Below, piece after piece: positions 56,710 through 58,931 of a stretch of 64,000 nucleotides of DNA. The DNA lies in assembly GCA_028281525.1 (NCBI GenBank), contig JANQJR010000036.1, forward strand, positions 1 through 64,000, given 5' to 3'. The notes beneath the pieces are model-generated. The model saw nothing but the letters and a program-made list of their open reading frames with translations. It made no database searches and was not told where the DNA came from. The position numbers and the translations under genes were made by a program. The stretch's first letter is position 1. The number at the start of each line of letters is the position of its first letter. The DNA is from Magnetovibrio sp. (GTDB taxonomy: Bacteria > Pseudomonadota > Alphaproteobacteria > Rhodospirillales > Magnetovibrionaceae).

Positions 56710-56964
56710 ATGCAGACCTCCAATCGCATTCTCGACGATATGGCCAAAGTGGCGAGCGGCGCTGTGTCCGCCATCACCGGCGCCAAGGGCGACGGCGAAC
56801 ACTTCTTGAAGCGCCAGATGGAAAAACTGCTGTCCGAAATGGACCTGGTGACGCGTGAGGAATTCGACGCGGTCAAAGCCCTGGCCGCCAATGCGCGTGC
56901 TGAGCAGGAAAAGCTGGAAGCCCGCGTGGCCGAGCTGGAAGCCCAGCTCAAGAAAAAGAAATAA
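56710..56964 (+). CDS. BMFP-domain protein, UbiK-like
   Basis: MQTSNRILDDMAKVASGAVSAITGAKGDGEHFLKRQMEKLLSEMDLVTREEFDAVKALAANARAEQEKLEARVAELE. Confidence 0.9.
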   Translation: MQTSNRILDDMAKVASGAVSAITGAKGDGEHFLKRQMEKLLSEMDLVTREEFDAVKALAANARAEQEKLEARVAELEAQLKKKK

Positions 56965-57006: not shown

Positions 57007-57215
57007 GATTCGCCTCCGCTTTGCGCGGTTTTGAAAAAACGCATGTTTTTGAATCCTTGAGAGCTCCCGATTCGCCCGATTCGGGGGCTTTTTGGCGAAT
57101 CGATGCTAAGACTTTGGAATCCTTGAGACTCATGCTTGAAAATTGGATTATCCACAAGAATCACCTTGTAACGCCTTGCACACCTTGCACCCCATAGAGA
57201 CACTAAATCTAGTGT
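57007..57215. promoter_or_regulatory. Intergenic island with GANTC cluster, DnaA box, CCTTG repeats and palindrome
   Basis: GANTC at 57007, 57051, 57069, 57078, 57097, 57117, 57127, 57158; TTATCCACA at 57148-57156; CCTTG at 57055, 57121, 57164, 57174, 57183; ACACTA-AATC-TAGTGT at 57200-57215. Confidence 0.6.
57062..57093 (+). terminator. Intrinsic terminator-like hairpin
   Basis: AGCTCCCGATTCGCCCGATTCGGGGGCT followed by TTTT; long stem with one T-T mismatch; GATTC (GANTC) present in both arms. Confidence 0.7.
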
Positions 57216-57261
57216 TGGCCGCAAGAGCCACACACACATAGTGGATTTGGGGGTCAGGTAC

Positions 57262-57765
57262 ATGCCGACACTGCACAGCGAATTTGAGCGTTCCGTCAGT
57301 CATCCCATGGACGTGGTCGAACAGACCGTGGGCCTTTACGAATGGCAAACGGACCGCACCTGCGACACGGAAATCGCCGTGCAGGCGCCCGGTAAATGGT
57401 GCGATTACTCCATGTACTTCACCTGGAGCGAAAACGCCGAAGCCATGCAACTGACCTGCGCTTTCGACATGCGCATCCACAAGGACAAACTCGGAGCGGT
57501 ACACGAACTGTTGATGCTCGCCAACGAAAGTTTGTGGCTCGGCCATTTCGGCCTGTGGGTCGACGAAGGCCTGCCCATGTTCCGCCATGCGCTGCCGCTG
57601 CGCGGTGCCGCGAAACCGACCATCGAGCAGGTTCAGGACATGGTGGAAACGGCGCTCTATGAATGCGAACGCTTCTATCCCGCCTTCCAATACGTAATCT
57701 GGGGCGGACACACCGCTGAGCAAGCCATGCAGGCGGCGCTTCTGGAAACCGTGGGCGAGGCCTAA
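57262..57765 (+). CDS. YbjN domain-containing protein
   Basis: WCDYSMYFTWSENAEAMQLTCAFDMRI...HLGHFGLWVDEGLPMFRHALPLRG pattern; start at MPTLHSEFERS. Confidence 0.88.
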   Translation: MPTLHSEFERSVSHPMDVVEQTVGLYEWQTDRTCDTEIAVQAPGKWCDYSMYFTWSENAEAMQLTCAFDMRIHKDKLGAVHELLMLANESLWLGHFGLWVDEGLPMFRHALPLRGAAKPTIEQVQDMVETALYECERFYPAFQYVIWGGHTAEQAMQAALLETVGEA

Positions 57766-57768
57766 GCT

Positions 57769-58581
57769 GTGACGACCCATCTGCTCATCGGCTGCGGCAA
57801 GATGGGCGGAGCCATGCTGGAAGGCTGGCTCGACCAAGGTATTCCCGCTTCCGACATCACCATCGTGGAGCCCAACGCCGAGCTGGCGCGCACCATTGCG
57901 GGCAAGTATGGCGTGAACGCCGCCTCTGGCGTGGAGGACCTGACTGAGGATTACGCTCCGGACGTGGCGGTCCTGGCGGTCAAACCCCAGGTCATGGACC
58001 AAGTCCTGCCGCCCTATAAAGCCCTTGTCCCTAAAGGTCCCGTGTTCCTGTCCATCGCAGCAGGCAAGACCATCGCCAGCTTCGAAGCCATCTTGGGCAA
58101 CGAGGCCGCCATCGTGCGCGCCATGCCCAACACGCCCGCGGCCGTGGGCCGGGGCATCACGGTAAGCTGTCCCAACGCCAACGTCTCAGACAACCAACGC
58201 CAACTGTGCGATCAACTGCTCGCATCCGTCGGCCAAGTGGAATGGGTGATCGAGGAAGCGCACATGGATGCCGTCACCGCCGTGTCGGGCAGCGGCCCCG
58301 CATACATTTTCCTGCTGGCGGAAACCTTAGGGTACGCGGGCCGCATGATGGGCCTGCCGCCGGAGCTGTCGGACAAACTGGCGCGCGCCACCGTGGCGGG
58401 ATCGGGCGAACTTCTGCACCAGTCCCATGAGAGCGCTCAGACGTTGCGCGAAAACGTCACCTCGCCGGGCGGCACCACGTCCGCCGCGCTGGAAGTTCTG
58501 ATGGGTCCACACGGCATGAAGGAACTGATGGAAAAGGCCATCGCGGCTGCGACCGAACGCTCCAAGGAATTGGCGAACTGA
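57769..58581 (+). CDS. proC: Pyrroline-5-carboxylate reductase
   Basis: LLIGCGKMGGAMLEGWLDQG; RAMPNTPAAVGRGI; AVSGSGPAYIFLLAE; TSPGGTTSAALEVL; start is GTG. Confidence 0.96.
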   Translation: MTTHLLIGCGKMGGAMLEGWLDQGIPASDITIVEPNAELARTIAGKYGVNAASGVEDLTEDYAPDVAVLAVKPQVMDQVLPPYKALVPKGPVFLSIAAGKTIASFEAILGNEAAIVRAMPNTPAAVGRGITVSCPNANVSDNQRQLCDQLLASVGQVEWVIEEAHMDAVTAVSGSGPAYIFLLAETLGYAGRMMGLPPELSDKLARATVAGSGELLHQSHESAQTLRENVTSPGGTTSAALEVLMGPHGMKELMEKAIAAATERSKELAN

Positions 58582-58931
58582 TGAGCGCCCCCGCACCCCA
58601 AATCACTTACGATGATTTCGTCAAGGTCGATATCCGTGTCGGCCAGATCATGCGCACCGAAGACTTCCCCGAAGCGCGCAAACCCGCGATCAAACTGTGG
58701 ATCGATTTCGGCGACGACATCGGCGTGAAAAAAAGCTCGGCGCAAATCACCAAGCACTACAAACCGCAATTGCTGATGGGCAAACAGGTGCTCGCCGTGG
58801 TCAACTTTCCACCCCGCCAGATCGCGGACTTCATGAGCGAGGTGCTGGTTCTGGGCGTGCCCGACGACGAGGGCGAGGTGATCTTGCTCAAGCCCGAACA
58901 GTACGCCCCCCTGGGTGGGCGGATGTTCTAG
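58581..58931 (+). CDS. csaA: CsaA-type tRNA-binding domain protein
   Basis: ITYDDFVKVDIRVGQIMRTEDFPEARKPAIKLWIDFGDDIGVKKSSAQITKHY; VNFPPRQIADFMSEVLVLG. Confidence 0.94.
   Translation: MSAPAPQITYDDFVKVDIRVGQIMRTEDFPEARKPAIKLWIDFGDDIGVKKSSAQITKHYKPQLLMGKQVLAVVNFPPRQIADFMSEVLVLGVPDDEGEVILLKPEQYAPLGGRMF

Follow-up and report, generated by a model that had tools for sequence, protein, structure and literature searches.

A GANTC-dense region with a conserved DnaA box upstream of ybjN as a candidate replication-coupled control region in Magnetovibrio

Gene organization at the ubiK-ybjN locus

The region described here separates ubiK from ybjN in a genome of 3.58 Mb (72 contigs) from a magnetic marine bacterium of the genus Magnetovibrio, which, as matched through the ybjN locus, includes Magnetovibrio blakemorei MV-1. 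The analyzed stretch of 64,000 nucleotides on contig C36 is referred to as the window. The ubiK/BMFP gene on the left (56,710 to 56,964, plus strand) was recognized by Pfam PF04380 (E 8.6e-26), with an NCBIfam UbiK match below the cut-off. On the right, ybjN (57,262 to 57,765, plus strand; PF10722), the predicted regulated gene, is followed by proC (57,769 to 58,581, plus strand; TIGR00112 over cut-off), which starts 3 bp past the ybjN stop codon, and by a gene for a CsaA-like tRNA-binding protein (58,581 to 58,931, plus strand; PF01588) that overlaps the proC stop codon. These three genes, whose intergenic gaps do not exceed 3 bp, probably share one operon. Orthologs of ybjN were found in 37 of the 41 relatives searched and in 113 of 144 members of the class.

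The first-pass annotation had described mostly minus-strand genes to the left of the island and plus-strand genes to the right. The latter is correct, but ubiK, the immediate left neighbor, is also encoded on the plus strand, and the island therefore sits between co-directional genes. An Rfam scan of the island region returned nothing above threshold, and no tRNA or tmRNA was found by a search of the region. A minus-strand frame of 217 aa across the island was rejected as coding; its indels differ among relatives, and the frame is lost in most of them.

The densest GANTC cluster found in the genome

GANTC is the cell-cycle methylation site that is methylated by CcrM. The island contains eight such sites, read without strand, within 156 bp (57,007 to 57,162; starts at 57,007, 57,051, 57,069, 57,078, 57,097, 57,117, 57,127, and 57,158). 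All starts listed in the first-pass annotation are exact, and so are the DnaA box TTATCCACA at 57,148, the five CCTTG motifs (57,055, 57,121, 57,164, 57,174, and 57,183) and both copies of the 12-mer GAATCCTTGAGA (57,051 and 57,117). The 12-mer was discarded as a dispersed element, as these two are its only exact copies in the genome, and the CCTTG triplet was discarded as a conserved motif, as only its middle copy is kept (CTTGCG in relatives).

When the island was shuffled 2000 times with its dinucleotides preserved, eight sites were never reached (mean 1.1, maximum 5), and the same result (0/2000) was obtained for the whole intergenic stretch. The Poisson probability of eight sites in 156 bp is 4e-10 with the genome mean and 2e-5 with the mean from local composition. 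The original expectation of well under one site is correct for the genome mean (0.26) but not for the local composition (about 1.1). Over the entire window GANTC is depleted, with 114 sites versus 262 expected from dinucleotide shuffling, and passages of PMC3973325 report GANTC depletion for CcrM-bearing alphaproteobacteria.

The proposed helical phasing did not withstand analysis at 10.5 bp (Rayleigh p 0.43-0.96 in 11 family members). A regularity at 10.0 bp is present (Rayleigh p 0.009-0.1 in the same 11 family members, which are not independent rows), because some of the sites form direct and inverted repeats with units of 9-10 bp. The extended form YGAKTCG is found, without strand, between 57,006 and 57,102 (CGATTCG/CGAATCG at 57,007, 57,069, 57,078, and 57,097). 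It accounts for four of the eight island sites in comparison with 68 of 646 (10.5%) in the sampled genome (binomial p 0.006), and passages of PMC7987155 report it as the extended motif of GcrA-activated promoters.

A structure that had been overlooked involves two of the eight sites. A hairpin followed by a T run (57,061 to 57,090, plus strand; -19.1 kcal/mol, z -3.05) is the probable intrinsic terminator of ubiK and contains the sites at 57,069 and 57,078. Five more members of the genus have a strong, similarly formed hairpin at this position, and these two sites therefore have a dual use in Magnetovibrio. It was not seen in L039 and L040, which belong to another genus and keep the GANTC sites. 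The hairpin also speaks for an ordinary explanation of the island, namely a terminator in AT-rich intergenic DNA of a genome that avoids GANTC in its genes: it explains two sites, and passages of PMC3973325 describe an enrichment of GANTC in the intergenic DNA of alphaproteobacteria. The retention of sites without a hairpin in L039 and L040, the shuffles of the intergenic stretch and the conservation of the sites in register make this explanation very unlikely.

The rank of the cluster was determined by genome-wide scans for GANTC triplets (gaps of at most 30 bp) followed by local counts at most loci of the first scan. A background sample of 455 kb, comprising the window and 391 kb from elsewhere, contains 1.67 GANTC sites per kb, and every other 156-bp stretch in it has four sites or fewer. 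The ybjN island ranks first, and the scans and local counts found no equal. It is followed by the ccrM promoter with seven sites and by three clusters with six, located at the ftsA-ftsZ junction (L198:2907-3063), between flgB and fliO/fliP (L200:3037-3197) and beside a putative lipoprotein gene; the fliF promoter has five (L207:3272-3432). In Caulobacter, ccrM, ftsZ, and the flagellar genes are cell-cycle genes. GANTC density thus recovers the regulon that one would expect, and ybjN ranks first in it. The absence of a GANTC methyltransferase, which the first-pass annotation had named as a counterargument, is ruled out by a CcrM gene on contig C23, whose RAMA/N6_N4_Mtase protein matches the NCBIfam CcrM model with E 6e-189, below the Caulobacter cut-off of that model. 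GcrA is encoded on contig C56 (PF07750).

The scans also revealed a repeat (GAATCGCCCTCTAAACATTTGATGAGAGACGGATTCACGTCTTAATCCGCATCGCTAAAGCGATTC and variants) that is dispersed in the genome, measures about 66 bp, and has three GANTC sites per copy. More than a dozen copies, several of them at contig ends, are distributed over G000 contigs C1, C3, C4, C7, C13, C25, C26, C42, C51, C55, C56, C57, C61, and C69.

Conservation of the array

An alignment of orthologous ubiK-ybjN regions, which the first-pass annotation had recommended, documents the conservation of the array in three genera of the family. All 11 regions harbor 7-10 GANTC sites, which are largely in register. The identity of the columns with shared GANTC sites is 85% versus 61% for other columns. 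Within the sites it amounts to about 0.90 at the fixed bases and 0.81 at the N position, and the flanks range from 0.57 to 0.79 with the exception of the preceding base (0.94). At the position of CTTGCGANTC, near the -35-like element, relatives have GACTC or GAGTC, with GANTC retained. The upstream 250 bp of the 11 family regions have a density of 30.9 sites per kb, and the remainder of the locus has 0.9 per kb. Beyond the three genera the rise is modest (6-8 versus 0.7-2.1 per kb); a few further families have clusters of their own (L047, L058, L133, L140, L143, and L159). L140 and L143, which belong to another order of the class, have six clustered GANTC sites together with a DnaA box in reverse orientation (TTGTGGATAA) upstream of ybjN, a combination that possibly arose independently.

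The alignment bears on the idea that the CGATTCG/GAATC repeats are operators of another transcription factor and match the CcrM target only incidentally. The CGATTCG flanks of several sites are conserved as strongly as the core, and the repeats of 9-10 bp at some of the sites would fit such operators. However, sites with differing flanks (TTTGAATC, TGGAATC, and TGCGANTC) are retained while the N position varies, and the same GANTC density marks ccrM and ftsZ. We therefore consider a function as operators of a different factor improbable.

A DnaA box at a fixed distance from the predicted promoter

DnaA is the initiator of replication. The DnaA box TTATCCACA (57,148 to 57,156, plus strand) is conserved throughout the order in the form TTWTNCACA, which occurs in the upstream region of 24 of 30 loci from the order versus 0.41 expected. 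Its start lies 55 bp ahead of the -10-like element ACTAAATC (57,202 to 57,209, plus strand), which is of the GCTANAWC consensus type. A candidate -35-like element, TTGCAC (57,176 to 57,181, plus strand), is orthologous to CTTGCG(ANTC) in relatives; the spacing from TTGCG to GCTA is longer than canonical. Measured to the CTA of the -10/operator, the DnaA box lies 54-55 bp away in every one of the 11 close family members. Of the 12 other loci of the order in which the scan recognized both elements, 11 have a distance of 64-67 bp, and L047 has 76 bp. The two spacing classes differ by one helical turn between clades. The near-constant spacing within clades and the shift by one turn between them fit a transcription factor that always binds to the same face of the helix.

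The first-pass annotation had also considered an origin-like element. The co-occurrence of a DnaA box, a GANTC cluster, and AT-richer DNA, which resembles the known origin of Caulobacter, speaks for a chromosomal replication origin or a part of it. Against it, the region has a single consensus DnaA box, and the GC skew of the window does not switch at 57 kb, being negative to the left and to the right of the island. In G006, a family member with a complete genome, the skew turns from negative to positive at about 1.94-1.97 Mb, beside parB (1.978 Mb), and ybjN is located at 1.042 Mb, in the middle of a replichore and about 0.93 Mb from the skew switch and parB. For G006 the skew and the parB position refute the origin-like element, and we regard an origin function of the region as extremely improbable.

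A second alternative is that the array serves as a sink or timer, which titrates DnaA, CcrM, or GcrA or is bound in its hemimethylated state by a SeqA-like factor, comparable to datA and the GATC clusters of E. coli. It is in line with the highest GANTC density found in the genome, the location of the majority of the sites upstream of the core promoter and their regular spacing near 10 bp. We know of no SeqA-like protein in the class, and the lone DnaA box at a fixed distance from the -10 element argues for transcription over titration, although a single box may be a minor sink. A sink or timer as the explanation of the region is thus unlikely.

A candidate palindromic operator over the -10-like element

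The GCTAnAT-type -10 element overlaps a CACTAnATnTAGTG palindrome that resembles an NrdR box. This palindrome, ACACTAAATCTAGTGT (57,200 to 57,215, without strand), was likewise overlooked in the first-pass annotation and is the element that is conserved furthest beyond the family. It agrees with the NrdR consensus CWANATNTWG at 12 of 12 scored positions, and the recovery of this consensus at nrdJ promoters supports its use. Of the 11 close family members, 10 have a 14-mer core that matches the consensus at all 12 positions. In the genome, ACACTANATNTAGTG occurs exactly only here. Related palindromes were found upstream of ybjN across the class. In 58 regions the best match to CACWANATNTWGTG has a mean of 10.2 of 12 versus 7.8 in shuffles, with values near chance for two rearranged control motifs (8.3 and 8.0 versus 7.8); the operator consensus scores 11.6 versus 9.1 in shuffled sequences. 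Because one half of the palindrome falls on the alphaproteobacterial -10 consensus, the promoter itself could explain part of the conservation.

A weak second copy, ACACACACATAGTGG (57,230 to 57,244, without strand), lies at +29 with a best match of 7/12. The second box is clearer in several relatives (9/12 at +31 in L040, L041, and L043), and the spacing of paired boxes over 58 ybjN loci has a modest peak at 31-32 bp, the second box being weak in the species of the window. NrdR-type boxes with a stronger 31-32 bp pairing peak are present at the nrdJ promoters of the same genomes. For the NrdR boxes of E. coli, linkers of 15-16 bp are reported (PMC12176259). A putative NrdR, the only ATP-cone protein with the size expected of NrdR (open frame of 156 aa), is encoded on G000:C2. 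From the box match, the modest 31-32 bp pairing peak, and the recovery at nrdJ we infer that NrdR is the likely binder of the palindrome; the direction of regulation at this promoter is a prediction.

A proposed replication-coupled control region

The ubiK-ybjN region is real, conserved, and functional-looking, and it is best read as a variant of a cell-cycle promoter rather than as an origin. The cell-cycle-controlled promoter proposed in the first-pass annotation gains support from the conservation of the sites in three genera, the genes for CcrM and GcrA, the fixed distance between DnaA box and promoter, and the dense GANTC sites shared with ccrM, ftsZ, flgB/fliO, and fliF. Our best explanation, to which we assign a probability of roughly 0.68, is a replication-coupled control region for ybjN-proC-csaA that integrates DnaA, CcrM/GcrA methylation, and probably NrdR. 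Together, the densest GANTC cluster found in the genome and the conserved DnaA box suggest that the replication cycle of the chromosome probably switches ybjN. The sites and their conservation are established here, as are the rule for the spacing and the genes for CcrM, GcrA, and a putative NrdR; replication initiation, fork passage, and dNTP status would set the timing of ybjN expression.

In the proposed mechanism a sigma-70-type promoter with its -10 element at about 57,202 to 57,209 would drive ybjN-proC-csaA, with a transcription start expected approximately 7-10 nt past ACTAAATC/GCTACATC. This promoter would combine one DnaA site at a fixed distance upstream of the -10 element with CcrM sites arrayed upstream, of which half have the extended GcrA form, and with a palindromic, NrdR-box-like operator that covers the -10 element. 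Replication initiation may be signaled through DnaA bound at the box, and the passage of the fork would leave the GANTC sites hemimethylated until their remethylation, a state that GcrA could read. DnaA at its box and GcrA at methylated GANTC sites would then modulate the activity of RNA polymerase on the ybjN promoter, with NrdR as a repressor at high dATP, and through all three ybjN-proC-csaA expression would track replication.

The closest equivalents are the GcrA/CcrM-dependent promoters of Caulobacter and Brevundimonas, which, according to passages of PMC3667746, PMC3973325, and PMC7987155, share with our region upstream GANTC sites in a genome that encodes CcrM and GcrA; the enrichment of YGAKTCG and the GANTC-rich ccrM, ftsZ, and flagellar promoters of the Magnetovibrio genome extend this likeness. 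The ybjN region differs in its array of 7-10 sites, most of them well upstream of the core promoter, which counts against our explanation, since the published GcrA model has a site adjacent to the promoter. The non-canonical spacing of the -35-like element, the weak second NrdR-like box of this species, the overlap of the palindrome with the -10 consensus, and the modest GANTC density beyond the family count against it as well. The searched passages of the three papers do not name ybjN as a target. The nrdAB promoter of E. coli, for which both DnaA and NrdR are named as regulators (PMC12176259), resembles the ybjN promoter in the combination of a DnaA box with NrdR-type boxes. It differs in that ybjN is not a ribonucleotide reductase gene, CcrM sites are added, and the spacing changes by one helical turn between clades. 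The CWANATNTWG palindrome, the 31-32 bp pairs of several relatives and the same boxes at nrdJ are in agreement with NrdR operators, but in contrast to the tandem type the second box of Magnetovibrio is degenerate, and the palindrome is a candidate operator by its sequence. The GATC clusters of oriC/dnaA and the datA locus in E. coli likewise combine many adenine-methylation sites in a short stretch with a DnaA box, whereas the ybjN region is far from the origin, involves a different methylase, and has one DnaA box.

In the open-access literature we found no paper describing this control region, tying YbjN to the alphaproteobacterial cell cycle, or linking NrdR to ybjN or ccrM. The densest CcrM-site cluster found marks an uncharacterized gene common to most sampled Alphaproteobacteria and not a classic regulator. 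If our explanation is true, YbjN would belong to the replication/cell-cycle regulon, and the region would offer a small natural system in which to test how a single promoter combines DnaA, DNA methylation, and dNTP sensing. A more far-reaching version, in which a single conserved alphaproteobacterial promoter integrates DnaA, the GANTC methylation state, and NrdR/dNTP and YbjN is an unrecognized replication-phase protein, is tentative and on balance doubtful. In this version the array itself may work as a timer based on hemimethylation, analogous in alphaproteobacteria to sequestration of the SeqA type. The set of dense clusters (ybjN, ccrM, ftsZ, flgB/fliO, and fliF) suggests that density alone can predict the CcrM/GcrA regulon in non-model alphaproteobacteria.

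A PDB profile search with the YbjN alignment, a weak search in which some rows were strand-unchecked, gave no credible match, and the structural link of this YbjN subfamily to AmyR/DR1245 therefore rests on Pfam membership and the literature. The YbjN-like protein DR1245 of Deinococcus binds the SSB-like protein DdrB, and its loss slows growth (PMC3575483). By analogy, a role of YbjN near the replication fork is a reasonable first guess.

NrdR-box-like palindromes at other loci

NrdR-box-like palindromes also occur away from ybjN. One of them, GCACTATATATAGTGA (G000:C56:888-903, locus L067), lies upstream of a glutamyl-Q-tRNA synthetase-like gene, and the 2.4-kb locus around it contains no ribonucleotide reductase gene. 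The ccrM promoters of the family have two such palindromes exactly 32 bp apart (for example CGCAAGATATTGAG / CTCAACATATAGCT), which overlap GANTC sites. The ccrM upstream regions considered are L231-L239, L242, L245, and L248, with L193:3444-3489 as an example, and weaker pairs, 31 bp apart, are found in some other families.
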